DNA from: Brevundimonas vitisensis
Lineage (GTDB): Bacteria; Pseudomonadota; Alphaproteobacteria; Caulobacterales; Caulobacteraceae
Reading direction: 5' to 3'
Length of the DNA: 64,000 nt
NCBI RefSeq assembly: GCF_016656965.1
Contig: NZ_CP067977.1
Coordinates: forward strand, 2,194,501-2,258,500
A program made the position numbers and the translations under genes. Below, one piece after another: positions 9,259-28,750 of the stretch. The notes below the pieces were generated by a model that ran no database searches, was not told where the DNA came from, and was given only the letters and a program-made list of their open reading frames with translations. Within the stretch, counting starts at the first letter, position 1. Every line of letters starts with the position of its first letter.

Positions 9259-10065
9259 TCAGGCGCCGGTGAACTGCGGCGGGCGTTTGTCGAGAAAGGC
9301 CTCGACGGCCTCCTTGTGGTCGGCGGTCTCGTGGGCCAGGGCCTGGAAGGCGGCGGATAGTTCCAGCACATCGGCCAGGCGCGAATGCTGACCCTCGCGC
9401 AACAGCCGCTTGGCCAACCGCACGGCGCGGGGCGGGTTGACGGCGATGCGCTCGGCCAGGGCCAGGGCCTGGTCCAGCACCTGGTCGGCCGGGACGACCC
9501 GGTTGACCAGACCCATGCCTTTGGCCTCTGCCGCCGAATAGGTGTCGCCGGTGAGGATCATCTCGGCGGCATTGGCATAGCCGATGGCCCGCGGCAGGAT
9601 CCAGGCTCCGCCGTCGCCGGGAACGATGCCCATCTTGACGAAGCTGGCGGCGAACTTGGCCGCGTCCGAGGCCACCCGCAGATCGCACAGGCAGGCGATG
9701 TCGCAGCCCAGGCCGATGGCATGGCCATTCACGGCGGCCACGGTGGCGATCTCCAGTCCGGCAAAAGCCAGGGCGATCTTCTGGACGCCGCGCCGATAGT
9801 TGTCGCGGGTGTCGGCCGGCGTGGCCAGGGGGCCGATGCCGTTTCGGTCGCGCATGCCCTTCAGATTGCCGCCGGCCGAAAAGGCCGAACCGGCACCGGT
9901 CAGAACCAGGACAGAAATTGCCGGGTCTGCGTTCGCGCGCTCGATCGCCGCGACCAGATCGGTGCAGTCGGAGTGTTCGCCGATCGCATTGCGCGTGTCG
10001 GGCCGGTTCAGCGTGACGACCGCGATACGGCCACGGGTCTCGTAAAGGGCGAAGGGTTCGCTCAT
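9259..10065 (-). CDS. Crotonase (enoyl-CoA hydratase/isomerase) family protein
   Basis: 268 residues. First oxyanion-hole segment GSAFSAGGNLKGM and second segment NGHAIGLGCDIACLCDLRVAS identify the crotonase fold. By hand alignment the two hydratase glutamates are not kept: the first position is Asp (GCDI) and the second Phe, while an Asp is present in IVPGDGG, as in some isomerase-type members. First gene of the reverse operon leading to DUF35, thiolase, folE and thioesterase. ATG 10065 was preferred over an in-frame upstream ATG at 10098, since family similarity starts here. Confidence 0.88.
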   Translation of the reverse strand: MSEPFALYETRGRIAVVTLNRPDTRNAIGEHSDCTDLVAAIERANADPAISVLVLTGAGSAFSAGGNLKGMRDRNGIGPLATPADTRDNYRRGVQKIALAFAGLEIATVAAVNGHAIGLGCDIACLCDLRVASDAAKFAASFVKMGIVPGDGGAWILPRAIGYANAAEMILTGDTYSAAEAKGMGLVNRVVPADQVLDQALALAERIAVNPPRAVRLAKRLLREGQHSRLADVLELSAAFQALAHETADHKEAVEAFLDKRPPQFTGA

Positions 10066-10264: not shown

Positions 10265-11491
10265 ATGTCGTCCAAGGCCCTGGAAGGCGTCAGGATCCTG
10301 GATCTCAGTCGGGTGCTGGCTGCGCCGCTGGCCAGTCAGCTGCTGGCTGATCTGGGCGCCGACGTGATCAAGGTCGAGCGCCCCGGGACCGGCGACGAAA
10401 GCCGGGAATATGGCCCGCCCTTCCTGAACGACAGCGACGGCAATCCGACCTCGGATGCAGCCTTCTTTTTGAGCTGCAACCGCAACAAGCGATCCATCAC
10501 CGTCGATCTGGCCTCGCCCGAAGGGCAGGAGATCGTCCGTCGCCTGGCGGCCCAGAGCGATGTGGTGCTGGAGAACTTCAAGACCGGGGCGCTGAAGAAG
10601 TACGGCCTGGACTACGACAGTCTGAAGGCCATCAATCCGGGGCTGATCTATTGTTCGATCACCGGCTTCGGCCAGACCGGACCTATGGCGCAAAAGCCCG
10701 GATACGACGGCGTCTTTCAGGCCATGGGCGGGATGATGAGCGTCTCGGGTCTGCCCGACGGCGTGCCGGGCGGAGGGCCTATGAAAGTCGGCATCTCCAT
10801 GGTCGACATCCTGACCAGCCTCTACGCCTCCAGCGCCATCCTGGCGGCTCTGCACCACCGCGACGCGGGCGGGGGGACCGGCCAGCACATCGACCTGTCA
10901 CTGCTGGACTGCGGGGTGGCGTCGCTGAGCCACTTCGCCATGAGCTATCTGGTCTCAGGCGAGATTCCGGCCCGTCGGGGCAATGGCGGCTATGGCGGTG
11001 TGCCGTCGCAGACCTTTCGCTGTTCGGACCGGGACATCTTCCTGACGGCGGGCAACAATGTGCAGTTCGCACGTCTGTGCCGGGCGCTGGACCGGCCGGA
11101 GCTGGCCAAGGATCCGCGCTTCGACAATACGGCGGGGCGGATCTGCAATCGCGACGCCCTGCTGGAAATCCTGGATGCGGTGTTCGCGACGCGAACCGCC
11201 GAGGACTGGCTGGCGCGGCTGGACGTGGCCGATGTGCCTTCCAGCCCGGTCAATGACATCGCTGACGCCCTGGCCAATCCACAGATCGTGCATCGCGGCA
11301 TGGTGCGAGAGATCGACCATCCGGTGGCCGGAAAGCTGAAGGCCCTGAGCAATCCCATCCGCCTGTCTGAGACCCCGATCGAGGACTATGCCCCGCCCCC
11401 GCTGGTGGGAGAGCATACAGACGCCATCCTGGCCTCGGTCGGATACGAGCCGGATGCCGTGGCTGCCCTGCGCCGATCGCGCGTCATCTGA
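10265..11491 (+). CDS. CaiB/BaiF family (class III) CoA-transferase
   Basis: 408 residues. N-terminal LEGVRILDLSRVLAAPLASQ and LGADVIKVERPGTGDESR, then NRNKRSITVDL and the GPMAQKPGYDGVFQAMGGMM region, where the Asp of GYD is the conserved acyl-anhydride-forming residue of formyl-CoA transferase-type enzymes. It would move CoA between acyl-CoA and a free acid, activating the substrate without ATP. ATG 10265 has GGGAGG upstream; a longer in-frame reading to 10064 has no similarity. First gene of the forward operon with crotonase, SDR and crotonase. Confidence 0.9.
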   Translation: MSSKALEGVRILDLSRVLAAPLASQLLADLGADVIKVERPGTGDESREYGPPFLNDSDGNPTSDAAFFLSCNRNKRSITVDLASPEGQEIVRRLAAQSDVVLENFKTGALKKYGLDYDSLKAINPGLIYCSITGFGQTGPMAQKPGYDGVFQAMGGMMSVSGLPDGVPGGGPMKVGISMVDILTSLYASSAILAALHHRDAGGGTGQHIDLSLLDCGVASLSHFAMSYLVSGEIPARRGNGGYGGVPSQTFRCSDRDIFLTAGNNVQFARLCRALDRPELAKDPRFDNTAGRICNRDALLEILDAVFATRTAEDWLARLDVADVPSSPVNDIADALANPQIVHRGMVREIDHPVAGKLKALSNPIRLSETPIEDYAPPPLVGEHTDAILASVGYEPDAVAALRRSRVI

Positions 11492-11549
11492 AAAACCCCC
11501 TGCGACGGCTCCCCGCGTCGCTTCACGTCATCCCGAAGGAAAGCCCGCC

Positions 11550-12338
11550 ATGACCGACAAGATTCTGAGCCGCAAGGACGGCCCGATCGGCCACATGATC
11601 TTCAACAACCCCGACAAGCTGAACGCCATCTCGCTGGAGATGTGGGAGGGGATGTCGACCATCATGGCCGACTTCGAGAGCGATCCGGTCATCCGCGTCA
11701 TCGTGATATCGGGCGCGGGGGGCGTATCCTTCATCGCCGGCGCCGACGTCTCGAAATACGAGGAAGAGCGGATGGGCGAGAATGCTCAGGAGCACTATGC
11801 GCAGACCGGCGAGCGCGGCCTGTCGGCCATCTATAATTCGACCAAGGTGACGATCGCGGCCATCGACGGCTGGTGCATCGGCGGGGGCATCTCGGTCGCG
11901 GTGTCCTGCGACCTGCGCTACTGCTCGTCCAAATCGAAGTTCGGCCAGCCGGCCATGCGCTACGGGATCGGCTATCGCTACAAGAGCCTGTCGCGGCTGG
12001 TGGACATCATCGGCGTACCCGCATCCAAGGATATGCTGCTGGGCGGGCTGCAGTTCACCGCCGAGGAGGCCTACGCCAAGGGGCTGGTCGGACGGGTGCT
12101 GGCGGAGGGCGAGGAATTCGATGCCTTCATCAAGAAGACGGCGTCCCAGATCGCTGGCGGCGCGCCGCTGACCGCCGAGCAGATCAAATACACCCTGGCC
12201 ACGATCCTGAAGGATCCGGCCGATCGCGATCTGGCCAAATGCGAGGAGATGTTCCAGACCTGTTATGCGTCCTCGGACTATAAGGAAGGCATCCGCGCCT
12301 TTGCCGAGAAGCGCAAGCCGGTGTTCACCGGCAGCTGA
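11550..12338 (+). CDS. Crotonase family protein
   Basis: 262 residues. Oxyanion-hole motifs GGVSFIAGADVSKY and DGWCIGGGISVAVSCDLRYC show a crotonase fold. At the first hydratase Glu position there is Ser (GGGIS), and FGQPAMRYG has Ala at the second, so a simple enoyl-CoA hydratase activity is not expected; isomerase, hydrolase or another crotonase reaction is possible. ATG 11550 has GAAGGA nine bases upstream. Ends with the common AEKRKPVFTG tail. Confidence 0.88.
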   Translation: MTDKILSRKDGPIGHMIFNNPDKLNAISLEMWEGMSTIMADFESDPVIRVIVISGAGGVSFIAGADVSKYEEERMGENAQEHYAQTGERGLSAIYNSTKVTIAAIDGWCIGGGISVAVSCDLRYCSSKSKFGQPAMRYGIGYRYKSLSRLVDIIGVPASKDMLLGGLQFTAEEAYAKGLVGRVLAEGEEFDAFIKKTASQIAGGAPLTAEQIKYTLATILKDPADRDLAKCEEMFQTCYASSDYKEGIRAFAEKRKPVFTGS

Positions 12339-12352
12339 CCGGAGCAGTGACC

Positions 12353-13036
12353 ATGCAGGACAAGATCGTCGTCATCACCGGAGCCTCCGGCGCGCTGGGG
12401 CGCGTCGTGGCTGCGCGAGCCGCCGCCCTAGGCGCGCGGGTCGTGGCGGTCGATCATGCGAGCGAGGCCCCGCCGGGCCTGGCCGAGGCCCTGGGCGAGC
12501 ACGGCGTAATCCGGGGGGGCGTGGACCTGTCCGACGCCGCCGCCGCCGAGGCGGCCATCACGGCGGCCGGGTCGGTCGATGTCCTGATCAATATCGCGGG
12601 CGGCTTTGCGTGGGAGACCGTGTCGGACGGCGAGGTCGCGACCTGGGACCGGCTGTATCGGCTGAACGTCGTGACGGCGCTGAACGCCTGCCGGGCCGCC
12701 CTGCCGCATCTGGTTGCCAGCGGAGCAGGCCGGATCGTCAACATCGGGGCCAATGCCGCGCACAAGGCCGCGACCGGCATGGGGGCCTATGCCGCGTCCA
12801 AAGCCGGCGTGCATCGCCTGACCGAGGCCTTGGCCGAGGAGTACAAGGGCCGCGTCACGGTCAATGCCGTCCTGCCCTCCATCATCGACACTCCGGCCAA
12901 TCGCAAGGATATGCCGGACGCCGATTTCGGAACCTGGGTCACACCGGATGAGCTGGCCGAGGTGATCCTGTTCCTGGCGTCTGATGCGGCCAGTGCCGTC
13001 ACCGGGGCGCTGATCCCGGTTACTGGGCGGGTCTGA
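12353..13036 (+). CDS. SDR oxidoreductase resembling dihydropteridine reductase (QDPR)
   Basis: 227 residues. Glycine motif GASGALG (10-16) and Tyr146-x3-Lys150 are present, but the catalytic Ser position, 13 before the Tyr, is Ala133. The same absence of Ser is known in dihydropteridine reductase, and the C-terminal segment AVLPSIIDTPANRKDMP followed by DADF (about 173-191) closely follows the QDPR pattern of LDTP, NRK, MP and ADF, as does the IAGGF segment near 81-85. QDPR reduces quinonoid dihydropterin to tetrahydropterin with NADH. ATG 12353 has GGAG upstream; a GTG at 12347 is the alternative. Similar SDRs are frequent in bacteria and not proven DHPRs, so the function is an inference. 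Confidence 0.8.
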   Translation: MQDKIVVITGASGALGRVVAARAAALGARVVAVDHASEAPPGLAEALGEHGVIRGGVDLSDAAAAEAAITAAGSVDVLINIAGGFAWETVSDGEVATWDRLYRLNVVTALNACRAALPHLVASGAGRIVNIGANAAHKAATGMGAYAASKAGVHRLTEALAEEYKGRVTVNAVLPSIIDTPANRKDMPDADFGTWVTPDELAEVILFLASDAASAVTGALIPVTGRV

Positions 13037-13040
13037 CGCC

Positions 13041-13940
13041 ATGACCTATCGCGGCAAGTGGCTGAACGATCCGAAGGAGGTCCTGTTCGAGGTCGCCGAT
13101 CGCGTGGCGCGCATCACCCTGAACAAGCCCGACAAGCGCAACGCCCTGTCGCCCCAGACGCTGCAGGACCTGCACGACGCCCTCTTGGAGGCGGACGACC
13201 GGCTGGACGTCAATGTCATCATCCTTCAGGGCGCGGGCAAGGATTTCTGCGCCGGCTACGACCTGGCCGGGGTCTATGCGGGGCGTCAGGCCGAGAGCGA
13301 GATCGAGGCGTCCGCCTATCGCTCCTCCTCGGGCAGCTATGACGACGACGCCTGGTTCATGGAGCGGCAACAGGCCCTGACCACGGTCATCTTCGACCTG
13401 CACAAGCCGGTGATCGCGCGGGTGCACGGCAACTGTCTGGCGGGCGGCACGGACCTGGCCTTGATGTGCGATTTCGTCATCGTATCGGACGAGGCGAAGA
13501 TCGGCTTTCCGGCCACCCGTGCCAACGGGTCGCCGCCAAACCATATGTGGATCTATCACTGCGGCCCGCAGTGGGCGAAGCGGATGCTGATGACCGGCGA
13601 CAGCATCCTGGGGCGTGATGCAGTGACCATCGGCCTGGCCCTGGAATCGGCCCCGGCCGACCAGTTGGATGCCTGCGTCGACGAACTGGCGCGGCGATTG
13701 TCCTTCGTCGACAACGAGCTGCTGTCCGCCCACAAGCGGATCGTCAACCTGGCCCTGGAGGTCATGGGGGCCAGGACAATCCAGCGCCTTGCAGCCGAGA
13801 ACGATGCCCGTGCCCACCTGTCCAAGGGGCCGCGCCGGACGCAGTTCAAGGCCGATATGGCCGAACATGGTCTGAAGACGGCCCTGACCCACCGCGATGC
13901 GCCGTTCGGCGACGGGATTGTGCGCCTGCGTCGGGATTGA
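13041..13940 (+). CDS. Crotonase family protein
   Basis: 299 residues, longer than the other crotonases here because of an insert of about 25 residues after the first oxyanion segment (GKDFCAGYDLAGVY). The second segment HGNCLAGGTDLALMCDFVI has Asp where hydratases have the first Glu, and the second Glu position is Thr. Starts four bases after the SDR stop and ends the CoA-transferase operon; a small CGCTGC-acc-GCAGCG hairpin follows immediately (13941-13955). Probably an acyl-CoA isomerase or hydratase-like enzyme; reaction not determined. Confidence 0.87.
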   Translation: MTYRGKWLNDPKEVLFEVADRVARITLNKPDKRNALSPQTLQDLHDALLEADDRLDVNVIILQGAGKDFCAGYDLAGVYAGRQAESEIEASAYRSSSGSYDDDAWFMERQQALTTVIFDLHKPVIARVHGNCLAGGTDLALMCDFVIVSDEAKIGFPATRANGSPPNHMWIYHCGPQWAKRMLMTGDSILGRDAVTIGLALESAPADQLDACVDELARRLSFVDNELLSAHKRIVNLALEVMGARTIQRLAAENDARAHLSKGPRRTQFKADMAEHGLKTALTHRDAPFGDGIVRLRRD

Positions 13941-14067
13941 CGCTGCACCGCAGCGATCGGTGTCGCGATCAGGGGCGTCAGCGTGTTTCGACGGTTTTAC
14001 ACGCAAGACGGGACGGCTAGTCTGTCTGCTTCGGCGTCCGGTGTTCGGTCGCGACGACGGACTGCCC

Positions 14068-14814
14068 ATGCTGCTCGAATCCGGCCCGCTTCCGCTTTAC
14101 CACCAGTTGGAACAGGACCTGCGTGCGCGCCTACACGCCGGTCAGTACGCCCCCGGCGACGCCCTGCCTTCCGAAGAGCGGATATGCGAGCAGTATGGCG
14201 TCAGCCGGATCACCGTGCGCAGGGCATTGGACGCGCTGATCGCCCAGGGGCTGATCGTCAAGCGGCGCGGGGTCGGCTCCTTCGTAGCGGAACCCAAGAC
14301 CGGGGCCCGGACCATTTCCTTGCGGGGCTCGCTGGACGAATTCCTGTCGGGCGCCGGCGTGATGGAGCCCGATCGGCTGTCTCTGACGCACGACGCCACC
14401 AACGCCCAGGCCGCCGCGAACCTGAACCTGCCCGAAGATGCTCAGCTGACGCGGATTGAACTGGTCAGCCGGATCGACGGCGAACCGACGGCTCATCTGG
14501 AAATCTATTTCCCGCATGAGGTCGGGCGCCAGCTGGAGCATCACGACTTTCTGAAGGCGGGGGTGCCGATCATCCGGGCAGTCGAGCGGCGACTGAATGT
14601 TCGGGTCAGTCGCGCCCAGCAGAAGATTGAATCCAGCACCGCAGGCGAGGTCGCGGCGGCTCACCTGGGGCTGCAGCCTGGCGATCCGGTCCTGTTCGTC
14701 ACCCGTGTCTACTATCTGGCCAGCGGCCAACCCATCGAAGCTGTATTCGTCCGCTACCATCCCGCGCGATACAGCTATGTCATTGAATTCAATGCGGACG
14801 GCCGCGGGCGATAA
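14068..14814 (+). CDS. GntR/HutC family transcriptional regulator (UTRA domain)
   Basis: 248 residues. N-terminal GntR winged helix (LPLYHQLEQDLRARL, GDALPSEERICEQYGVSRIT, RRALDALIAQGLIVKRRGVG) and a UTRA effector domain from about residue 90 (LRGSLDEFLSG, LVSRIDGEPTAHLEIYFP, GDPVLFVTRVYYLASGQPIE). HutC-type members usually repress nearby catabolic genes and release DNA on binding a pathway acid or CoA ester. ATG 14068 begins at the family N-terminus; it follows the CoA-transferase operon by 127 bases and may share its control. Confidence 0.92.
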   Translation: MLLESGPLPLYHQLEQDLRARLHAGQYAPGDALPSEERICEQYGVSRITVRRALDALIAQGLIVKRRGVGSFVAEPKTGARTISLRGSLDEFLSGAGVMEPDRLSLTHDATNAQAAANLNLPEDAQLTRIELVSRIDGEPTAHLEIYFPHEVGRQLEHHDFLKAGVPIIRAVERRLNVRVSRAQQKIESSTAGEVAAAHLGLQPGDPVLFVTRVYYLASGQPIEAVFVRYHPARYSYVIEFNADGRGR

Positions 14815-14930
14815 GCCTGGGCAAAACCCATAAAGCGAACGTCATTCGAAAAAACACACGCCCTACCTTGCGAGCCTCAACTTGTTATGACAGCATGACG
14901 TCATAAGAAAAGGCATAGGGAAACGTCGTC
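14815..14930. promoter_or_regulatory. iclR upstream region with inverted-repeat operator (14882-14909)
   Basis: Just before the second iclR gene lies TTATGAC (14885-14891), eight bases, then GTCATAA (14900-14906): a perfect 7-base inverted repeat, extended to nine of ten matching bases per arm from 14882 to 14909. The right arm contains the perfect 8-base palindrome TGACGTCA (14897-14904). The region is AT-rich compared with its surroundings. Most likely an autoregulatory operator of the IclR protein encoded directly downstream. Confidence 0.6.
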
Positions 14931-15743
14931 ATGGTCAAGTCGCTGGACCCGAAGAAGATCAAGTCCGCACAGCGTGCGCTTGAGGTGCTGGAGTACTTTT
15001 CCGACAGCCGGCCGACGGCCACCGTCATGGATATCGCCCGGTCCATGGGCTATCCCCAGTCCAGCACGTCGGAACTGCTCAACTGTCTGGTTTCCTTGGG
15101 CTATCTGGAGCGCGACCGTGACGCGCGGACCTATCGCCCCACGGCCCGCGTCGCTGTGATCGGCTCCTCCGTCCAGCCGGAACTGTTCCGCAAAGGGCGC
15201 CTGTTGGCCATTCTGGACCACCTGTCAGAAGAGGCTGGCGTCACGGTGACCCTCGCGCACAAGGTCGGGATGTCGATGCAGCACATCCATGTGGTGCGGG
15301 CGGCCGACAGCGCGATCGAGATTCCCGCCGCCACAGGGCTGGCAACCTCGGCGCCCGGCAAGGCCCTGCTGGCGACCTTCGATCCGAACCTCGTCAGGAA
15401 GCTGGTGCACCGCATCAATGCCGAGGCCCCCGAAGGCACGGCCCGCATCTGTGCCACGGAGCTGGCCGACGAGCTGCGCGCCTGTGCCATTCAGGGCTAT
15501 GCCCTGCACCTCGAGGACGGTCAGGCCAGCCTGTCGATGTTGATCTCCCAGGGCCGCGACGCCCATGCCCTGGTCCTGACCATCCATGGCGATGCCACGA
15601 TGTTCGAGGCCCATCGCGATTGGCTGTTGCAGATGGTGCGCGGTGCGATCGCGCGCCTGACCAATCCGTCCATGAGCCGTCCCCTGATCGAGGCACCCCT
15701 GACCGAGGCGGGCGTCGCCGAACCGATGCGCCGCTCAGCCTGA
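14931..15743 (+). CDS. IclR family transcriptional regulator
   Basis: 270 residues. IclR winged helix at about 8-65 (KIKSAQRALEVLEYFSDSRP, MDIARSMGYPQSSTSELLN, LVSLGYLERD) followed by an effector domain with ATGLATSAPGKALLATF and later GYALHLEDGQASLSMLI. The second domain is more divergent than in the IclR at 4495. It is followed by a strong bidirectional terminator and faces the reverse thiolase-like operon, so it probably controls one or more of the surrounding operons; the inverted repeat at 14882-14909 suggests autoregulation. Confidence 0.9.
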   Translation: MVKSLDPKKIKSAQRALEVLEYFSDSRPTATVMDIARSMGYPQSSTSELLNCLVSLGYLERDRDARTYRPTARVAVIGSSVQPELFRKGRLLAILDHLSEEAGVTVTLAHKVGMSMQHIHVVRAADSAIEIPAATGLATSAPGKALLATFDPNLVRKLVHRINAEAPEGTARICATELADELRACAIQGYALHLEDGQASLSMLISQGRDAHALVLTIHGDATMFEAHRDWLLQMVRGAIARLTNPSMSRPLIEAPLTEAGVAEPMRRSA

Positions 15744-15764
15744 TCTTCCAAACTGTCAAACAAC

Positions 15765-15794
15765 GAACGGCCGCCCCGACCGGGGCGGCCGTTC
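15765..15794. terminator. Bidirectional terminator between iclR and the thiolase-like gene
   Basis: Perfect 13-base stem GAACGGCCGCCCC (15765-15777) / GGGGCGGCCGTTC (15782-15794) with a GACC loop. Forward it is followed by TCGTTTCTC; in reverse by GTTGTTTGAC, both T-rich. It lies between the converging stops at 15743 and 15802 and can serve both genes. Confidence 0.85.
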
Positions 15795-15801
15795 TCGTTT
15801 C

Positions 15802-16941
15802 TCAGAGGCCCAGGATCACCGTGGCCTGGCTGGACAGGACGCCGCCGTTGCCGTGGGCCAGGGCGCGTTCGGCCCCGGTGATCTGACGATCGCCGCACTC
15901 GCCACGCAACTGGCGCACGGCCTCGACGAGTGTGAACAGGCCGTACATGCCGGGATGGCAGCAGGACAGGCCGCCGCCATTGGTGTTCACCGCCAGAGAT
16001 CCGCCCGGTGCGATGGCACCGTCCTGGACGAACCGCCCACCCTCGCCCTTGGGGCAGAAGCCCAGGTCTTCCAGGAACAGGATCGTGTTGATGGTGAAGG
16101 CGTCATAGACCTGGACCACATCGATATCCGATGGGCCGAGCCCCGCCTGGGCATAGGCGCGCGCGCCCGAGGCCTGGGCCGCCGTGACCGTCAGGTCGTC
16201 CAGCCAGCCGATCTCGCGATGGTGGGTCTCGGCGGCCGCGCCCAGGACATGGACCGGCTTGCGCTTCAGGTCGCGGGCCCGGTCGGCGCGGGTCATGACG
16301 ATCGCAGCGGCCCCATCCGTGACCAGGCAGCAATCCAGCACCGTCAGCGGGTCGGAGACCCGTCGCGAGGCCAGATAGTCGTCGAGCGTCAGAGGGTCTC
16401 GCTTGAATGCCTCGGGGTTCAACTGGGCCCACTCGCGCGCGGCCAGGGCGACGGCGCCCAGCTGTTCGCGTGTGGTGCCGTACTGATGCATGTGGCGCGC
16501 GGTCGCCAGGGCATAGGAGCTGACCGGATTCAGCGGGCGATAGGGGGCTTCGTACCGCATCGGCTGAACGGTCGAGACCAGCTTGCCCGTCGCGGTCGCC
16601 TGGTTCGACCCATAGGCGATCAGGGCGCAGTCGATCAGCCCAGCATCCAGCAGGAAGGCGGCATGCTCGACATAGGTCTGAAACGCCGAGCCGCCGGTGC
16701 GGTTGTTGTCGGTGACCTTGGGCCGAATACCCAGATACTGAGCAAACGACAGCCCGCCCATGGTGTCGGTGGGGTGACAGAAGAATAGACCGTCGACGTC
16801 GGTTAGGCTCAGGCCCGCATCTTCCAGTGCCAGGCCGGCGGCGATGGCGGCCAGATCGGAAGCCTCGAAACCGGGCGCGCGTCCCTGGCCGAAGGTGGCG
16901 GCCCCGACGACGGCCGTGCGGCCGGAAGGGAAACCGCTCAT
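15802..16941 (-). CDS. Thiolase-fold lipid-transfer (Ltp-like) protein lacking the catalytic Cys; candidate aldolase
   Basis: 379 residues. The thiolase fold is clear, but the usual Cys segment is replaced by DNNRTGGSAFQ (79-88), with no Cys at the nucleophile position. The HDCF/NEAF motif is VYDAF and the GHP-x-GATG region is CCHPGMYG, so tyrosines occupy active-site positions. This pattern is known from Ltp2-type steroid side-chain aldolases, thiolase relatives that perform a retro-aldol cut together with a DUF35 partner. The DUF35 gene directly upstream overlaps it by four bases (ATGA). Aldolase function is inferred from these changes. Confidence 0.82.
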   Translation of the reverse strand: MSGFPSGRTAVVGAATFGQGRAPGFEASDLAAIAAGLALEDAGLSLTDVDGLFFCHPTDTMGGLSFAQYLGIRPKVTDNNRTGGSAFQTYVEHAAFLLDAGLIDCALIAYGSNQATATGKLVSTVQPMRYEAPYRPLNPVSSYALATARHMHQYGTTREQLGAVALAAREWAQLNPEAFKRDPLTLDDYLASRRVSDPLTVLDCCLVTDGAAAIVMTRADRARDLKRKPVHVLGAAAETHHREIGWLDDLTVTAAQASGARAYAQAGLGPSDIDVVQVYDAFTINTILFLEDLGFCPKGEGGRFVQDGAIAPGGSLAVNTNGGGLSCCHPGMYGLFTLVEAVRQLRGECGDRQITGAERALAHGNGGVLSSQATVILGL

Positions 16942-17315
16942 TGGCCATCCTCCACGGGATCGAAGACAACGACCGGCTCACCGTCTTGATCGATAATCCG
17001 TGCACAGACGATCATACCGATGGTCACGGCTTCGGGGTCCAGTCCCTCGACCCGGCTCATCATACGGACGCCCTCGTCCAGGTCGATCAGGGCGACGTTA
17101 TAGCTGGGCTCCGGCGGCCTTTTGCGCACCACGGTGGTGGAATAGACGATCCCCCGGCCCGAGGCCTCGACCCATTCCAGGTCGCGCGCACCGGTGCCCG
17201 GCGCGACGGCCCTTGGATAGAAGACGAAGGCCCCCGTCCCCCTCGAGCGCTGGATCATGAACCGCCCCTCGGCCAGGAAGGCGCGGAACTCGGAATCGGG
17301 GTGGGTGACGTCCAT
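16938..17315 (-). CDS. DUF35 OB-fold protein with zinc-ribbon cysteines lost
   Basis: 125 residues. The OB-fold part is normal (GRGIVYSTTVVRKRPPEPSY, NVALIDLDEGVRMMSRVEG, IGMIVCARII). The N-terminal ribbon keeps its layout (MIQRSRGTGAFVFYPRAVAP) but the four cysteine positions seen in the other two DUF35 proteins here are Ser24, Thr27, Ala38 and Thr41 by spacing, so no zinc can be bound there. Overlaps the Ltp-like thiolase by four bases and lies three bases after the crotonase gene, giving a fixed order crotonase-DUF35-Ltp. Most likely the structural partner of the Ltp protein. Confidence 0.85.
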   Translation of the reverse strand: MDVTHPDSEFRAFLAEGRFMIQRSRGTGAFVFYPRAVAPGTGARDLEWVEASGRGIVYSTTVVRKRPPEPSYNVALIDLDEGVRMMSRVEGLDPEAVTIGMIVCARIIDQDGEPVVVFDPVEDGQ

Positions 17316-17318
17316 GGA

Positions 17319-18089
17319 TCAGTTGCCGACGAAGGCGGATTTCCGCTTTTCCTTGAAGGCGGTTGTGCCCTCGCGGAAGTCCTCGGTCTGGACCATCAGG
17401 GGCTGGATATTGGCCTCAAAATCCAGGGCCTGGTCGAAGTTCTGGGCCGGGGCGGCCTCGAACTGGCGCTTGGCCATGCCGATGGCGATGGTCGGGGCAT
17501 CGACGAAGGAGGCGGCCAGTTCCCTGGCCTTGGCCAGCGCCTCGCCGGGCGGCGTGGAATAGAGCGCCAGGCCCAGCTGATGTGCCTCGGTGCCGCTGAC
17601 GAAGCGGCCGGAATACATGATCTCCTTGGCCCGCTGGATCGGGACATGGCGGCTGAGCAGATAGGCCGCGCCGCCGTCCGGAGCCAGGCCGATGTGGCGG
17701 AAGGCGAATTGGAAGCGGGCGTTCTCGGCGGCCACGATGATGTCCGTGGACAGGGCCATGGCCCAGCACATGCCGATGCAGACGCCTTCGACCGCGCTGA
17801 TGACCGGCTTGTTCGTATTGGCGATGGCGCGTGACATCCGGTGCATGTGCCGCATCCGGTAAAGCGATCCGCGGATCCCGCCGCCGCCCATCTCGCTGAC
17901 GTCGGCACCGGCACTGAAGTCCGAACCCGCCCCGGTCAGTATGATGACCCGCACCTGGTCGTCGTCCTGGCACTTTTGGAACGCCGCCTCGATCTCCAGG
18001 CGCATGGCCAACAGGATGGCGTTCTTGCGCTCCGGCCGGTTGATGGTGACGGTCGCGATGCCGCCCTCGATGGTCAGGTCGATGGCCAT
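17319..18089 (-). CDS. Crotonase family protein
   Basis: 256 residues. GSDFSAGADVSEM and EGVCIGMCWAMALSTDIIVAA are the two oxyanion-hole segments. Both hydratase Glu positions are changed (Ala and Phe by hand alignment) and the APDGGAAYLL segment has Asp, as in several isomerase or dehydratase-type crotonases. The ATG at 18089 has a strong AAAGGAGA ribosome site (18094-18101, minus strand). First gene of the reverse crotonase-DUF35-Ltp operon, divergent from the large acyl-CoA dehydrogenase operon. Confidence 0.9.
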   Translation of the reverse strand: MAIDLTIEGGIATVTINRPERKNAILLAMRLEIEAAFQKCQDDDQVRVIILTGAGSDFSAGADVSEMGGGGIRGSLYRMRHMHRMSRAIANTNKPVISAVEGVCIGMCWAMALSTDIIVAAENARFQFAFRHIGLAPDGGAAYLLSRHVPIQRAKEIMYSGRFVSGTEAHQLGLALYSTPPGEALAKARELAASFVDAPTIAIGMAKRQFEAAPAQNFDQALDFEANIQPLMVQTEDFREGTTAFKEKRKSAFVGN

Positions 18090-18235
18090 GCCGGTCTCCT
18101 TTGATGTGTGACCGGCATAGCACCGGGTCTTGGCTGGTGACGACCCAAGTGCGACCTTCGTGCCCGGCCATATCGCGGCTGCGATAGGGGTTGGCCCTCG
18201 CTTGTGGCACCGCACGCGGCGGTCAAATTGGCGGG
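18090..18235. promoter_or_regulatory. Divergent promoter region with inverted repeat (18168-18189)
   Basis: Intergenic region between two divergent catabolic operons. It contains TATCGC-ggct-GCGATA (18171-18186), a perfect 6-base inverted repeat that extends to CCaTATCGC / GCGATAgGG with one mismatch. Its right half, in the 13-mer GCTGCGATAGGGG, is repeated exactly at 4430-4442 in another divergent promoter of the cluster. A likely shared regulator site; which of the three local regulators binds it is not known. Confidence 0.5.
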
Positions 18236-19381
18236 GTGCAGACCTTCGACGCCCATCCTTTCAATCCGCCTGCTGGCGTCGCCGCCCTCCGCGACGAGGT
18301 GCGCGCCTTCATCGCCCGCGAAGCTCCGGTCACGGATGCGGCGGGCCGGGCCAACAGCTGGGCCGTCTGCAATGCGGACTTCTCCCGCGCCATGGCGAGG
18401 GCCGGCTATGTCGGCATGACCTGGCCCAGGCAATATGGGGGGCACGAGCGGCACCCCCTGCATCGCTATGTGGTTCTGGAGGAACTGCTGGCGGCGGGGG
18501 CCCCTGTCGGAATGCACTGGATAGCCGACCGCCAGAGCGGCCCCCTGCTGCTGCGATACGGCACCGAGGAACAGCGCCAGCAGTGGCTGCCGTCGATTGC
18601 GGCAGGCGAAACCTATGTCTGCATCGGCATGAGCGAACCGGGCGCGGGTTCGGACCTGGCCTCGATCCGGACCCAGGGCGTGCGCGACGGCGAGGGCTGG
18701 CGCATCACGGGCCAGAAGCTGTGGACCACAAACGCCCACAATGCCCATCTGATGATCGCCCTGGTCCGCACGGTCGAGGGATCGCAGCGGAACGAGGGCC
18801 TGACCCAGTTCCTGATTCCCATGGATGCGCCGGGCGTGACGGTGCGACCGATCATCGACCTGGTCGGCGGGCACGATTTCAACGAGGTTTTCCTGGACAA
18901 TGTCCATGTGCCGGATACGGCGCGGGTGGGCCCCGAAGGCAATGGCTGGACCCAGTGCACAGCCGAGCTGGCTCTGGAGCGGTCGGGGCCCGAGCGATAT
19001 CTGTCCAGCTATTCGGCCTTGACCGAGCTCATCCGCTTCGCCGGTCCCGATCCCGATCCGGTGCTGGCCGGGGTGATCGGACGGCTGACGGCTGACCTCT
19101 GGACCCTGCGGCACATGAGCCAGTCGACGGCCGCCAAACTGGCCGCCGGACAGGACCCGGCCCTGGAGGCTGCGATCGTCAAGGACCTGGGCAACAGTTT
19201 CGAACAGGATCTGCCGCGAGCCATCCAGGCCGCCTTGGACGGGGTGGACGATCTGTCGGACGCCGGCGACCTGGCGCGGGTCCTGGCTCTGCTGCTGCAG
19301 GTGTCGCCGTCATTCTCGCTGCGGGGCGGTACGCGCGAAATCCTGAGGGGCATCATCGCTCGGGGGCTGGGATTGCGATGA
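18236..19381 (+). CDS. Acyl-CoA dehydrogenase, larger subunit type (pair 1)
   Basis: 381 residues. Typical acyl-CoA dehydrogenase motifs: MSEPGAGSDLASIRT (flavin and substrate contacts), GQKLWTTNAHNA, NEVFLDNVHVP and RGGTREILRGIIARGLGL at the end. The Glu of the common YEGT motif is Gly here. It overlaps the next, shorter acyl-CoA dehydrogenase by four bases, as in the heterotetrameric (alpha2beta2) dehydrogenases of steroid side-chain degradation. The GTG at 18236 was chosen as start; a TTG at 18191 would add 15 residues overlapping the operator. First gene of the 16-gene operon. Confidence 0.87.
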   Translation: MQTFDAHPFNPPAGVAALRDEVRAFIAREAPVTDAAGRANSWAVCNADFSRAMARAGYVGMTWPRQYGGHERHPLHRYVVLEELLAAGAPVGMHWIADRQSGPLLLRYGTEEQRQQWLPSIAAGETYVCIGMSEPGAGSDLASIRTQGVRDGEGWRITGQKLWTTNAHNAHLMIALVRTVEGSQRNEGLTQFLIPMDAPGVTVRPIIDLVGGHDFNEVFLDNVHVPDTARVGPEGNGWTQCTAELALERSGPERYLSSYSALTELIRFAGPDPDPVLAGVIGRLTADLWTLRHMSQSTAAKLAAGQDPALEAAIVKDLGNSFEQDLPRAIQAALDGVDDLSDAGDLARVLALLLQVSPSFSLRGGTREILRGIIARGLGLR

Positions 19382-20376
19382 GTGAGGCCCGGTCCATGCT
19401 GGTTGAAACTGCAGATCGTCTGTTTACGGATATTTCTGCCGCGCCCGACGCCGTCTTTGCCGATGTGTGGTCCGGCCTGGCCGACACGGGGTTCGCCGCC
19501 CTGCTGCTGTCCGAGGACGAGGGCGGATTCGGTGGCGACTGGGGCGACTTGTTCGCCGTGGTTCGGCTCGCGGGTTTTCACGCCCTGGCCGCTCCGGTCG
19601 GAGAGGCTGCTCTTGCCGCCTGGGCGTTGGCGAAGGCCGGTCTGGATCCGGTCGAAGGGCTGGCCACCATAGCTCCCGTGGTCGAGGGTACGATCGAGGC
19701 AGGCCGTTTCACCGGCAGCCTGCGCGGCGTGCCCTGGGGAGGCGAGGCCCAGGTCGTGGTCGCGATGCTGGAGGGGTGCCTGCTGCGGCTCTCGGTCGCC
19801 GATGCGGTGGTGACACCGGGATCAAGCCCGGCAGGCGAACCGCGCGACCGTCTGACCTTCGCCAGTGCGCCGATCCAGGCAGCGGGCTGCGGCATCGATC
19901 TGCTGGCCTGCGGTGCCTTTCTGCGGTCCGCGCAGATCGCCGGAGCCCTGGATGCGGCCCTGGCAGCCTCGATCGCCTATGCCAACGACCGGGTCCAGTT
20001 CGGCAAGCCGATCGCCAAGTTTCAGACGGTGCAGCAGAACCTGGCCATCTTCGCGGTCGAAGCGGCAGCGGTGAACACAGCGGGACAGGCGGCAGCGCGC
20101 GCTGCGGATGCTGGGGATGCCAGTCTGGAGTTCGCGGCGGCCAAGCTGCGGGCCAACGCCGCCGCCGGACAGGGGGCCGCGCTGGCGCATCAGGTCCATG
20201 GGGCGATCGGCTTCACGCTGGAGTATCCGCTGCATCGCCTGACACGACGTCTGACCGGCTGGCGGTCCGAGTTCGGCGGAGATCGTTTCTGGGCCACGCG
20301 CCTGGGCCGCCAGGTCGCCGCTCTGGGACCGCAGGGCCTGTGGCACGAACTCGCCCGCCGCACCGACGCGGCCTGA
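19378..20376 (+). CDS. Acyl-CoA dehydrogenase, smaller subunit type (pair 1)
   Basis: 332 residues, shorter than ordinary acyl-CoA dehydrogenases (about 380). The middle beta domain is reduced and poorly conserved, while the C-terminal helical domain is clear: ANDRVQFGKPIAKFQTVQQN and HQVHGAIGFTLEYPLHRLT. The Glu in TLEYP is shared by the matching subunits of the other two pairs (TWEHP, TEEY). Start overlaps the partner as ATGA. Expected to form one active site with the 18236 protein; substrate unknown. Confidence 0.87.
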   Translation: MSEARSMLVETADRLFTDISAAPDAVFADVWSGLADTGFAALLLSEDEGGFGGDWGDLFAVVRLAGFHALAAPVGEAALAAWALAKAGLDPVEGLATIAPVVEGTIEAGRFTGSLRGVPWGGEAQVVVAMLEGCLLRLSVADAVVTPGSSPAGEPRDRLTFASAPIQAAGCGIDLLACGAFLRSAQIAGALDAALAASIAYANDRVQFGKPIAKFQTVQQNLAIFAVEAAAVNTAGQAAARAADAGDASLEFAAAKLRANAAAGQGAALAHQVHGAIGFTLEYPLHRLTRRLTGWRSEFGGDRFWATRLGRQVAALGPQGLWHELARRTDAA

Positions 20377-20394
20377 CGCCAAGGACCGACCCTC

Positions 20395-21579
20395 ATGCCC
20401 CACGCCGTCATCGTCTCGACCGCCAGAACCCCGATCGGCCGGGCTTTCCGTGGTGCGTTCAACAACACCCACGGCGCGGACCTGGGGGGGCATGTCGTGG
20501 CAGCGGCCCTGGCGCGCGCCGGTGTCGGGCCGGACGAGGTCGAAGACGTCATCCTGGGCTGCGCGACGCCCGAGGGGCCGACCGGAAACAATATTGCCCG
20601 CCAGTCGGCGATCCGGGCCGGATGTCCGGTCGGTGTGCCGGGCTTCACCCTGGACCGGAAATGCTCGTCGGGCCTTCAGGCCGTGGTCCTGGCCGCCCAG
20701 CGGGTGCTGGCGGGTGAAGCGGATGTGTTTGTGGCGGGCGGGGTGGAGAGCGTCTCCCTGACGCATCATCACATCAACCGGCACCGCAATCGCTCGAACT
20801 GGTTGCTCGAGCACAAGGCTGACATCTATGCGCCCATGATCGCCACGGCCGACACGGTAGCGCGGCGATACGGCATCAGCCGCGAGGCCCAGGACGCCTA
20901 TGCGCTGGAGAGCCAGCGGCGGGTCGCGGCGGCCCAGGCGGCGGGCCGGTTCGATGCCGAGATCGTGGCGCTGGAAAGCGTCAAACAGCTGACCGACAAG
21001 GCGGGATCGGTCACGGGGGAGGAGACGGTCACCCTGACGAAGGACGAGGGCAATCGGCCGGACACGACGCTGGAGGGTCTGTCGGCGCTGAAACCCATCA
21101 TGGGCGAAGGTGCCTTCATCACGGCCGGAAACTCATCCCAGCTTTCAGACGGGGCCAGCGTCTGCGTGGTCATGTCGGACGCAGAAGCGGATCGGCGCGG
21201 CCTGACGCCCCTGGGGCGTTTCACCGGTTTCGCCGTGGCCGGCTGCGAGCCGGACGAGATGGGTATCGGTCCCGTTCTGGCGGTGCCGAAACTTCTGGCG
21301 CGACATGGCCTAGACATCCACGACATCGACCTGTGGGAGCTGAACGAGGCCTTTGCCTCACAGGTTCTTTACTGCCGCGACACCCTGGGCATCGACCCGG
21401 AGCGGTTCAACGTCGACGGCGGCGCGATCGCGGTCGGCCACCCCTATGGCATGAGTGGCTCGCGTCTGGTCGGTCATGCGCTTATCGAAGGGGCACGGCG
21501 GGGCGCCCGGCGCGTCGTCGTGACCATGTGCATCGGCGGAGGCATGGGCGCCGCCGGTCTGTTCGAGATCGACCGATGA
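20395..21579 (+). CDS. Acetyl-CoA C-acetyltransferase (classical thiolase)
   Basis: 394 residues with the complete thiolase active site: nucleophile Cys90 in [32 protein letters not shown] and the second Cys in [11 protein letters not shown]. It would cleave 3-ketoacyl-CoA with CoA, releasing acetyl-CoA or propionyl-CoA; FadA5-like thiolases have this role in sterol side-chain breakdown. Starts 18 bases after the acyl-CoA dehydrogenase and overlaps the next crotonase by four bases. Confidence 0.95.
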
Positions 21580-22391
21580 CCGACCACTACGCCGCCTTCG
21601 ACCGTCTGAAGTTCGACCGGCCCGCGCCCTGGGTGCTGCGGATCACGATCAGCAATCCGGGCAAGTCCAATGCCGTGACCCCGGCCATGCACCGCCAGCT
21701 CGAAGACGTCTGGGCCGCCATCGACGCCGACCCGCAGACGCGCGTGACCATCATCACCGGCGAGGGCCGAGCCTTCTGTGCGGGGGGAGCTTTGGACGAC
21801 ATGCCGAGCGGTGGCGTGCTGGATCCGAACCAGCAGGTGTCCAAGGATTTCAACAATGCGGTCCGGCTGGTGCGGGGCATCATCGATGCGCGAAAACCGA
21901 TCGTCTCGGCCATCAACGGCGCGGCGGTCGGAGCCGGGCTGGCCATCGGCCTGCTGGCCGACGTCTCGATCGCGTCCAAGACCGCAAAGCTGCTGGATGG
22001 CCATGTGCGGATCGGGGTGACCGCCGGGGACCATGCTGCGATCGTCTGGCCCCTGCTGTGCGGCATGGCCAAGGCCAAATACTATCTGCTGACCAACCGG
22101 CCGATGACGGGCGAGGAGGCGGAGCGCAACAATCTGGTCTCCCTGGCCGTCGATGCCGAGGTGCTGGAGGCGACGTCGATCGAGGTGGCCAGCGAACTGG
22201 CCGCGTCCGCTCCCACTGCGGTGCGAATGACCAAATACGTCCTGAACCACTGGCTGCGGCAGCAATCGGCGATCTTCGACCTGTCGGCGGCTTTCGAGAT
22301 GGTCAATTTTTCAGGAGCCGAGGCGACCGAGGCCATGGCCGCGATGGCGGAAAAACGCGCGCCCGACTTCAAGTCCGACGTGACGTTCTGA
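21576..22391 (+). CDS. Crotonase family protein
   Basis: 271 residues. [13 protein letters not shown] and [21 protein letters not shown] are the oxyanion-hole segments. Ala and His stand at the two hydratase Glu positions ([15 protein letters not shown]). Ends in the usual [10 protein letters not shown] tail. ATG 21576 overlaps the thiolase stop (ATGA). Likely acts on an unsaturated acyl-CoA made by one of the dehydrogenases; hydratase versus isomerase or hydrolase is open. Confidence 0.88.
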
Positions 22392-22401
22392 GGGGCTGGC
22401 G

Positions 22402-23514
22402 ATGACCGACACCGAAACCGGCATGGACCTGATTGCCCTGCGCGACGGGGTCCGCGGCGTCCTTGCCGAACAGGCGTCGCATGAGCGGGTGAAGGCCTTC
22501 GCCGACGCGGAACAGATCCTGGACAAGGCGTTGTGGGATCAGGCCGCCGGCTTGGGCTGGACGGCCCTGTCGGCACCCGAGTGTTTCGGCGGGCTTGGCC
22601 TGGGTGCGCTGGAACTGGGTGTGGTGCAACAGGAACTGGGCCGCGCGGTGGCCCCTCTGCCGTGGCTGGGGACCATGCTGGCCGTTGAAATCCTGTCCCA
22701 TGCCGGAGAGGGGCCACAGGTCGCCGCCTGGACCGAAGGATTGGCCACGGGCACCCGCATCGGTGCCGTTTCCATGGTGACCCCCGAGGCCCTGTCGACG
22801 GATCTGATCCTGTCGTCAGGCGCGGGCGGCCTGGTCCTGAACGGCTTTGCGGGCGATCTGATGGACGGATCGGCAGCCGATCTGCTGATCCTGCTGGCCC
22901 GTCGGGAGGACGGCAAACTCGCCTGGGTGGTGGTGGAACCGTCGATCGATGGCGTCACGCCGGAAAAGATCGGCACCGTCGACCGGACCCGGCATCTGGC
23001 CCAGGTCCGCTTCACCGATGTCTGGCTGCCGTCCGAGCGTCTGCTGGCGGTGGATGCCGAGCGGGTGGGACAGGCCTTGCTGGCGACGGCTTCGCTGGCG
23101 ATCGCCGCCGACTGCGACGGTGGGGCCAACGCCATCCTGGAACTGACACTCGACTATCTGAAGACCCGACAGCAGTTCGGAAAGCCGATCGGGTCGTTTC
23201 AGGCGCTGAAGCACCGATGTGCCGAGCACAAGATTGCCCTGGTCGCTTCGGGTGGCTTGCTGGCCGAGGCGACCGACCGGCTGGCGCGCGGCGATGACGA
23301 GGCGCTGCGCTTAGCCCTTGCGGCCAAGGCCCTGTGCGCCTCGGTCTATTTCCGTATCGCCGAGGATGCGGTCCAGCTGCATGGGGGCATCGGCTATACC
23401 TGGGAGCACCCCTGCCATCTATATCTGAAGCGCGCGCGGCTGAACCAGCAGCTGTTTGGCGGCGAGACTGCTCACCTGGATCGGGTCGCGCAGCTGTTGC
23501 TGGCGGCGGCGTGA
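22402..23514 (+). CDS. Acyl-CoA dehydrogenase, smaller subunit type (pair 2)
   Basis: 370 residues. The N-terminal helical domain (LRDGVRGVLAEQ, LGWTALSAPECFGGLGLG) and C-terminal domain (YLKTRQQFGKPIGSFQALKHR, VQLHGGIGYTWEHPCHLYLKR) are well conserved, but the flavin-contacting SEPGAGSD-type motif of the middle domain is missing. The TWEHP Glu matches TLEYP of pair 1. Followed at once by the larger partner (one base between TGA and ATG). Predicted half of a two-gene dehydrogenase. Confidence 0.89.
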   Translation: MTDTETGMDLIALRDGVRGVLAEQASHERVKAFADAEQILDKALWDQAAGLGWTALSAPECFGGLGLGALELGVVQQELGRAVAPLPWLGTMLAVEILSHAGEGPQVAAWTEGLATGTRIGAVSMVTPEALSTDLILSSGAGGLVLNGFAGDLMDGSAADLLILLARREDGKLAWVVVEPSIDGVTPEKIGTVDRTRHLAQVRFTDVWLPSERLLAVDAERVGQALLATASLAIAADCDGGANAILELTLDYLKTRQQFGKPIGSFQALKHRCAEHKIALVASGGLLAEATDRLARGDDEALRLALAAKALCASVYFRIAEDAVQLHGGIGYTWEHPCHLYLKRARLNQQLFGGETAHLDRVAQLLLAAA

Positions 23515-23515
23515 G

Positions 23516-24757
23516 ATGACGATGACCCTGTCCACACCGACCGTTTCTCCGGCTCGCGTCTTCGACCCCCTGGCGCACAAGGATGACCTGACCGCCTTTC
23601 GTGCCGAGGTCCGGGCTTGGCTGGAGGCGGTGGTCCCAGCTGACTGGCAGACACGGATGACCGGGGCGGATGAGGCCGACTATGTCGCCTTCCAGCGCTG
23701 GTGGTTCGCAGAAATGCAGAAGGTGGGTTTGGCCACGCCGCACTGGCCTCGCGACTGGGGCGGTGCCGACATCGGCATCCGGCACCAGACGATCATCTTC
23801 GAAGAGGTGGCACGCGCCGGGGCCCCGGGGCCCGAGCTGTTCGTTATCTCGCTGTATCACCTGCCCGCCACCCTGTTCGGTCATGGATCCCAGGCGCAGC
23901 GCGACCGCTATCTGACCGGGGTGAAGGAACGCGGCGAGGTCTGGTGCCAGGGCTTTTCGGAGCCCAACGCCGGATCGGACCTGGCCTCGCTGCGCACGCG
24001 GGCCGAGCGGCGCGGTGACGTCTATGTGGTCAATGGTCAGAAGGTCTGGTCGTCGTACGGGGCCTTTGCCGACTATTGCCTGCTGCTGGCCCGCACGGAC
24101 TTCGAGGCCCCCAAGAAGCAGGCCGGCATCACCTATTTCATCCTGGACATGAAGGCTCCGGGCGTGACCGTGCGCCCGATCCGTCAGGCGACCGGCCAGT
24201 CCGAGTTCTGTGAAATCTTCCTGGACAATGTCGAGATTCCGGTAGCCGACCGGATCGGCGAAGAGAACGCGGGCTGGATGATCGCCCAGTCGACCCTGTC
24301 GGCCGAGCGGGGCCTGATCGTCTTCGAACTATCAGAGCGGATGGCCCGGGCCTTCGACGCCGACCTGGCCGAGGCCAAACGCACCGACGCCGCCTGGCTG
24401 AAGGACGACCAGCTGCGGCGCGAATTCACCGCCGCCTATTCGGACATGGTCACCCTGCGCCTGATGATCCGGGCCATGATGCAGGAGGTCGAGGCCGATC
24501 CGCACATGGGTTCGGCTACCCTGCCGACCTATATCAAGATCCACTTCTCGAACATTCTGCGGCGCTACACTGATTTCCGCGTGCGGATCGGCGGATTGGC
24601 GGCCCAGGCCCAGCAGCCGGCGGTGATGGGCGGCGGTCATCAGACCGGCAATGCCATGCACGATTTCATTCTCAGCTACGCCTGGAGCATATCGGGCGGC
24701 ACGGTCGAGATCCTCAAGACCGTGATCGCCGAGCGCGTGCTCGGCCTGCCGCGCTAG
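23516..24757 (+). CDS. Acyl-CoA dehydrogenase, larger subunit type (pair 2)
   Basis: 413 residues. GFSEPNAGSDLASLRTRAER, GQKVWSSYGAFADYC, CEIFLDNVEIP and the end ISGGTVEILKTVIAERVLGL define the subunit that carries the flavin/substrate loop; the YEGT Glu is Gly. The sequence around GFSEPNAGSDLASL is almost identical to the pair-3 larger subunit, pointing to duplication. ATG 23516 sits at TGAGATG after the partner stop. Gene order (small then large) is reversed relative to pairs 1 and 3. Confidence 0.9.
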   Translation: MTMTLSTPTVSPARVFDPLAHKDDLTAFRAEVRAWLEAVVPADWQTRMTGADEADYVAFQRWWFAEMQKVGLATPHWPRDWGGADIGIRHQTIIFEEVARAGAPGPELFVISLYHLPATLFGHGSQAQRDRYLTGVKERGEVWCQGFSEPNAGSDLASLRTRAERRGDVYVVNGQKVWSSYGAFADYCLLLARTDFEAPKKQAGITYFILDMKAPGVTVRPIRQATGQSEFCEIFLDNVEIPVADRIGEENAGWMIAQSTLSAERGLIVFELSERMARAFDADLAEAKRTDAAWLKDDQLRREFTAAYSDMVTLRLMIRAMMQEVEADPHMGSATLPTYIKIHFSNILRRYTDFRVRIGGLAAQAQQPAVMGGGHQTGNAMHDFILSYAWSISGGTVEILKTVIAERVLGLPR

Positions 24758-28738: not shown

Positions 28739-28750
28739 GGGGGTAGGTTG

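Follow-up and report, generated by a model that had tools for sequence, protein, structure and literature searches.

Among the closest described relatives of the gene pair analysed here are thiolase-fold enzymes that act with a DUF35 partner, TcLtp2-ChsH2(DUF35) (6ok1) and CtSal-Shy(DUF35) (9myr). The members described in PMC12329534 that are without the nucleophilic Cys and have Tyr in the active-site motif comprise two aldolases, Ltp2 and Sal, and a proposed one, TbSLP. The residue roles used below for Ltp2 and Sal, with Tyr294 of Ltp2 as the catalytic base, are those given there. The same paper has four Cys as the zinc ligands throughout the DUF35 homologues it compares, save for a Cys3His1 site in Shy. 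Another pair, IpfD/IpfE of Rhizorhabdus wittichii MPO218, has been proposed to yield 4-isobutylcatechol and propionyl-CoA from the ibuprofen-CoA diol, and an ipfD insertion mutant did not grow on ibuprofen, although a downstream effect on ipfE is possible (PMC9195938, PMC10004696). By our own chemistry, the ibuprofen-CoA diol is itself a tertiary β-hydroxyacyl-CoA. On plasmid pIBU218 we named ipfD from adjacency and gene order, and the published q-ipfE primers mapped to the DUF35 gene adjoining the thiolase-like gene.

The window, a stretch of 64,000 nucleotides from Brevundimonas vitisensis, contained three thiolase-fold/DUF35 pairs (A, B and C, Table 1), and their DUF35 genes were the only PF01796 matches in the genome. 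Pair A combined a nucleophilic Cys with a Cys4 partner, pair B had neither, and pair C had a Cys4 partner but no nucleophilic Cys in the enzyme. The pair C enzyme matched 17 NCBIfam models, none over its cut-off, and shows a second non-canonical active-site set. In pair B, the DUF35 gene and the enzyme gene overlapped by 4 bases (ATGA). The enzyme scored 635.4 bits with NCBIfam NF004811 (PRK06158; curated cut-off 421) and 224.5 bits with Pfam Thiolase_C_1. Its partner scored 65.8 bits with PF01796 (OB_ChsH2_C; gathering cut-off 27.1), while the zinc-ribbon model PF12172 (zf-ChsH2) reached 20.4 bits, below its cut-off of 23.2. Unlike ChsH2, this partner is a stand-alone DUF35 protein, unfused to any hydratase subunit. 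Single-chain AF2 models were obtained for the enzyme (mean pLDDT 94.2, pTM 0.94) and for the partner (mean pLDDT 93.0, pTM 0.83).

Table 1. Positions in the window of the three thiolase-fold/DUF35 pairs and of genes around them
Feature	Position	Strand	Basis or remark
GTP cyclohydrolase I gene	7099-7680		PF01227
Pair A thiolase, canonical Cys (NACATG)	7677-8816	minus	[12 protein letters not shown]; contrast within the window
Pair A DUF35, Cys4 motif (CSAC...CPGC)	8825-9250	minus	
Six aligned crotonases	9259-10065, 11550-12338, 13041-13940, 17319-18089, 21576-22391, 24768-25583		
CaiB-type CoA-transferase, same catabolic cluster	10265-11491	plus	syntenic in Caulobacter sp. BK020
Regulator gene of IclR type, oriented towards the end of pair B	14931-15743	plus	
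Pair B thiolase-fold protein, 379 aa	15802-16941	minus	PRK06158 profile, alignments, AF2 model
Pair B partner (DUF35, OB fold), 125 aa, devoid of zinc ligands	16938-17315	minus	Pfam, alignments, AF2 model
Crotonase-family gene, without both hydratase Glu, PaaG-like PDGG	17319-18089	minus	alignment
Adjacent acyl-CoA dehydrogenase gene pair, divergent from pair B	18236-20376	plus	
Acetyl-CoA C-acyltransferase, conventional (NEAF, GHP)	20395-21579	plus	PRK07108, 639 bits (cut-off 615)
Second adjacent acyl-CoA dehydrogenase gene pair	22402-24757		
Third adjacent acyl-CoA dehydrogenase gene pair	27530-29881		
Pair C thiolase-fold protein, with YDPC, lacking the nucleophilic Cys and the His at 329	31504-32667	plus	
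Pair C DUF35, Cys4 motif (CDDC...CTHC)	32670-33068	plus	PF12172, 51.8 bits

The first-pass annotation had placed DNNRTGGSAF where the nucleophilic Cys is expected and YDAF in place of NEAF, and both readings held. The former spans residues 78-87 and brings Gly84 to the nucleophile position, opposite the Cys of the SCP2-type thiolase of pair A; the latter occupies residues 279-282. The replacement of GHPxGATG by HPGMYG was also read correctly: the motif is shortened (SCCHPGMYG, residues 326-334), and its His is not lost but retained as His329. With the motifs aligned by eye, His363 (HGNGG) lies at the place of the CxGG Cys of conventional thiolases, which we take to be an acid/base residue, as we take the GHP His to have its usual thiolase role. 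NF004811 was named 'acetyl-CoA acetyltransferase' by NCBI, and the subfamily is defined on sequence alone. The thiolase activity implied by this name is doubtful because the nucleophilic Cys is missing.

To sample relatives, GTDB genomes were scanned with six query peptide patterns. At least 594 matches were obtained, with 588 relatives among the matches listed; the best 80 of these 588 were kept, and 81 enzyme ORFs from the 80 loci were aligned. Adding the query itself and three relatives from plasmids brought the set to 85 rows. IpfD, window pairs A and C, and seven more distant thiolase-fold ORFs of the sampled loci (from L028, L033, L034, L037, L038 and L047, plus the enzyme of the second L094 pair) were left out. 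Among the 81 ORFs, GG, YDAF and His329 were present in all, Tyr333 in 80 and His363 in 78. In the 85 rows, query included, Gly84 (GG), YDAF and His329 were found in 85/85 and His363 in 82/85; Gly83-Gly84, Tyr279, Ala281 and His329 were thus strictly conserved among the rows examined, and His363 nearly so. Such invariance argues for conservation of Gly84, YDAF and His329 beyond chance. As two of the six patterns contain Tyr279 or HPGMYG, conservation in the scanned rows was partly built in. A control set was therefore found by profile, comprising 14 places over the NF004811 cut-off in 12 genomes besides the window's own. All 14 carried Gly84 (GG), YDAF and HPGMYG, with His363 in 11 and Gln in the other 3. 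Because this control gave the same residues, the result stands despite the pattern bias.

In structural comparison, pair B resembled the aldolase complexes. The best Foldseek and sequence match of the enzyme was 4u4e, the solved structure of a putative, uncharacterised thiolase from Sphaerobacter thermophilus (47% identity). It shares with pair B the GG for Cys, the Tyr base, HPGMYG and HG.GG, and differs in having YDSF instead of YDAF. Next came 9myr_A (Sal) and 6ok1_A (Ltp2; TMq 0.90), and the partner matched 6ok1_D/B (ChsH2; TMq 0.85 for 6ok1_B) and 9myr_B (Shy). The Ltp2-ChsH2 DUF35 complex (6ok1), with which comparison had been proposed at the outset, and 9myr were the best matches of known activity. 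Ltp2 Tyr294, His296 and Tyr344 aligned with Tyr279, Ala281 and His329 of pair B. The assignment to a lyase of the Ltp2 type consequently stands for the fold, the missing thiolase nucleophile, the Tyr base and the DUF35 partner. It does not extend to the acid, where Tyr344 is replaced by His329, to the oxyanion residue, where His296 (YDHF) is replaced by Ala281, or to the partner's Cys4 zinc site. CtSal-Shy likewise shares the fold, the Tyr base and the DUF35 partner, as well as a Gly in place of the nucleophile, and differs in its catalytic Cys304 (YDCY) against Ala281, in Gln352 against His329 and in the Cys3His1 zinc site. By its aligned residues, then, the pair B enzyme has the set of neither Ltp2, Sal nor the thiolases. 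IpfD and IpfE were 39% and 40% identical to their counterparts in the query pair. Like the pair B enzyme, IpfD carries YDAF and lacks the nucleophilic Cys, and IpfE is without a Cys4 motif like the pair B partner, but IpfD has Tyr at position 329 and Thr at 363 where pair B has His. A second lipid-transfer/DUF35 pair on pIBU218 (L094:938-2502), with YDHF, Tyr at 329 and a Cys4 partner, looks Ltp2-ChsH2-like at the positions compared.

These features are real and widespread, and a working retro-aldolase is their most likely meaning, the activity being predicted from sequence. That pair B is a thiolase-fold CoA retro-aldolase with a variant Tyr/His active site has, in our estimate, a probability of about 0.5. 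Consistent with this reading are the Foldseek matches to 9myr and 6ok1 after the uncharacterised 4u4e, the correspondence of Tyr279 to the Ltp2 base, and the parallel with IpfDE. Pair B also sits in a CoA-dependent catabolic cluster, although gene context is description and not proof. In one relative (L126:2001-3671), the enzyme is naturally fused to a DUF35 domain without the Cys4 motif, both lying in a single open reading frame of 557 codons, as expected if the subunits form a complex. Against the reading, the acid and oxyanion residues of Ltp2 and the Cys of Sal are absent from the aligned pair B sequence.

In the mechanism we propose, pair B would be a C-C lyase of the thiolase fold acting on a CoA thioester. 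It would carry out retro-aldol cleavage of a β-hydroxyacyl-CoA with a β carbon not oxidisable to a ketone, such as a tertiary alcohol (cf. the Ltp2 substrate). Tyr279 would take the proton from the β-hydroxyl, and His329, in the place of Ltp2 Tyr344 and perhaps together with His363, would give a proton to the CoA enolate, with the oxyanion held by glycine backbone amides. The DUF35 protein would bind the enzyme dimer and shape the pocket, its ribbon folding metal-free. The catalytic sets of Ltp2 (Tyr/Tyr, His) and Sal (Tyr/Cys) would then be joined by a third.

The neighbouring crotonase gene gave the strongest result against a simple hydratase-aldolase pathway. It ends 3 bases upstream of the start codon of the pair B DUF35 gene and probably forms one operon with pair B. 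A tightly coupled hydratase-aldolase operon was nevertheless weakened as a candidate, since this upstream crotonase has no hydratase glutamates. Neither glutamate was found at the aligned positions in any of the six window crotonases aligned; the positions are those we take to be catalytic in hydratases, and they agree with motifs (ELAL and LPE) that other rows show. Because the adjacent and other aligned crotonases are without these residues, the source enzyme of the β-hydroxyl is not evident. The cluster may carry out unusual isomerase or ring-opening chemistry.

That neighbour, non-hydratase and PaaG-like, would also fit isomerisation or ring opening, and the same Tyr/His set might serve other non-covalent CoA chemistry on a β-keto- or β-hydroxyacyl-CoA, either decarboxylation or the opening of a ring or chain by hydrolysis. 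Pair B moreover retains both His329 and His363, whereas position 329 is Tyr in Ltp2, Gln in Sal and Tyr in IpfD. There is a precedent in TbSLP, a relative without thiolase cysteines for which very slow malonyl-CoA decarboxylation is described in PMC12329534; in the same paper, Sal has no malonyl-CoA decarboxylase activity. Since the Cys-less members with the Tyr motif described there are aldolases or, for TbSLP, a proposed one, we consider such chemistry less likely than retro-aldol cleavage, yet it is the alternative that survives best.

A working thiolase or acyltransferase using another Cys, either Cys327 or Cys328 beside His329 or else Cys204/Cys205, is improbable. The NCBI subfamily name would favour it, as would the presence of Cys204 and Cys205 in 85/85 rows and of Cys327 in 80/85. 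The Cys204-Cys205 pair is not specific, however, as it also occurs in Ltp2 and the aligned SCP2 thiolase, and Cys327 is replaced by Tyr or Phe in 5/85 rows and by Trp or Phe in 3/14 profile-found members. The normal nucleophile position is Gly throughout the 85 rows, and the cluster already has two ordinary-looking Cys thiolases, that of pair A and the conventional acyltransferase in Table 1. Judged by the sequence of the latter, the cluster also has normal thiolysis. Finally, loss of the nucleophile and of the partner's metal could both be decay, leaving a non-catalytic acyl-CoA-binding or scaffolding protein, but this is very improbable, as decay would not leave active-site residues invariant in 85 rows across several bacterial groups and in 14 profile-found members.

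Turning to the partner, Ser24, Thr27, Ala38 and Thr41 had been read at the four zinc-Cys positions, and alignment with the four Cys of the ChsH2 DUF35 domain (6ok1_B) agreed. The whole protein has one Cys (104) and one His (5), leaving the former zinc site without a Cys or His ligand. The CtShy Cys3His1 site described in PMC12329534 indicates that ligand sets can shift, but binding of metal by other residues of the pair B partner is most improbable, for both His5 and Cys104 lie outside the ribbon and AF2 modelled the ribbon confidently without metal (block means 92-96, residues 21-50). Among the titles and abstracts listed by our searches of open-licence PMC, none reported a zinc-free DUF35 protein, a negative of limited reach.

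The zinc-free state suggested by the first-pass annotation proved to be sound for the sequence of this partner but not particular to this window, as most of the subfamily rows that we examined share it. The 80 loci held 69 DUF35 ORFs, with Cys at all four positions in 21, at one in 4 and at none in 44. For the 85 rows, linked partners were without the Cys4 motif in 49 and with it in 20, and 16 rows had no same-strand neighbour. Three of these 16 had a Cys4-less DUF35 gene nearby on the opposite strand and 13 had one elsewhere in the genome, giving a DUF35 protein without the motif for 65/85 rows in total. The motif was scored as C-x2-C-x7-14-C-x2-C, so that a Cys3His1 site would also count as absent, which is immaterial for the query. 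Complete partner loss in the clade formed by those 13 rows was ruled out, as all 13 genomes hold a Cys4-less DUF35 gene elsewhere; in this clade (L018, L020, L023, L028, L029, L037, L038, L039, L045, L048, L051, L055 and L056) the gene lies beyond the flanking sequence retrieved on either side of the enzyme. Among the profile-found PRK06158 members, 11/14 had a Cys4-less partner. In 14 relatives below the NF004811 cut-off (L116-L123, L138-L143), by comparison, YDAF was found in 2, His at 329 in 8 and a Cys4 partner in 13, indicating that zinc loss is concentrated in PRK06158 and the Tyr/His set somewhat wider.

In a careful phylogeny of the 85 rows, the Cys4 state required 4 changes, each of them forced by supported branches; the number was 4-5 in 200 bootstrap trees and 5 in a quick 95-row tree that included outgroups. 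We infer that the direction was loss, because Cys4 is the rule in other DUF35 proteins. As read from these alignments, zinc loss is common among the relatives of the pair B partner and has more than one origin. Several enzyme columns differed with zinc state, and residues 54-59 and 65 ranked high among them. With only 3 supported independent contrasts on the tree, however, enzyme-partner co-adaptation at residues 79, 80, 81 and 328 cannot reach significance. A broader proposal remains tentative: that PRK06158 is a third, undescribed retro-aldolase class with a Tyr base and the thiolase His as acid, and that the DUF35 zinc site is dispensable, with about four state changes in the subfamily and a further loss in IpfE.

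Further genes of the cluster encode CoA ligases, paired acyl-CoA dehydrogenases, crotonases, SDRs and a TesB-like thioesterase. Three adjacent acyl-CoA dehydrogenase gene pairs were seen, some members missing one of the domains in Pfam; paired acyl-CoA dehydrogenases resemble heteromeric dehydrogenases of cyclic substrates. In Caulobacter sp. BK020, the genes from 10265 to 22402 occur in the same order, with 76-94% identity where complete. Within 6 kb of the enzyme, the 80 relatives had SDR (59), CoA-transferase (49), crotonase (41), MaoC (38) and acyl-CoA dehydrogenase (34) genes, and a crotonase- or MaoC-family gene was directly adjacent in only 28/80, which counts against the retro-aldolase reading. 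All of these gene kinds are common in any catabolic cluster.

An ibuprofen-type or steroid-nucleus substrate is unlikely. IpfDE acts behind an aromatic ring dioxygenase of the PF00848 family (ring-hydroxylating dioxygenase alpha family), whereas the window's genome had no PF00848 match. It also had no match to KshA_C (PF19298), which argues against aerobic steroid-nucleus degradation. Three Rieske matches were seen elsewhere in the genome.

The 85 rows span alpha-, beta- and gammaproteobacteria and two Saccharopolyspora. PRK06158 scored over its cut-off in 13/299 genomes drawn from the phylum, the window's own included, and in 2/61 near genomes; among the 37 listed of the window's genus, this was the case for its own genome only. 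Such a patchy distribution may reflect acquisition. In a plasmid collection, 571 records matched at some level, and for 63 of these the identity was 60-80%.

If the retro-aldolase reading is right, widespread genes named acetyl-CoA acetyltransferase or thiolase would encode C-C lyases, and degradation predictions for these bacteria would change. It would become testable which residue protonates the enolate in thiolase-fold aldolases. The role of the DUF35 zinc can likewise be tested, since natural sister pairs exist with and without the zinc site and three kinds of pair occur in one window. There would also be a lead on IpfE, the function of which is called unknown in a 2023 review (PMC10004696).

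Two further observations concern gene arrangement. In Novosphingobium cyanobacteriorum (L011:3087-7146), two tandem copies of the pair flank a crotonase gene. A GTP cyclohydrolase I gene lies inside the catabolic cluster of the window, and on a Sphingobium plasmid a related pair likewise has genes for a GTP cyclohydrolase, for a pterin dehydratase and for an amidohydrolase beside it, hinting at a pterin-dependent step.
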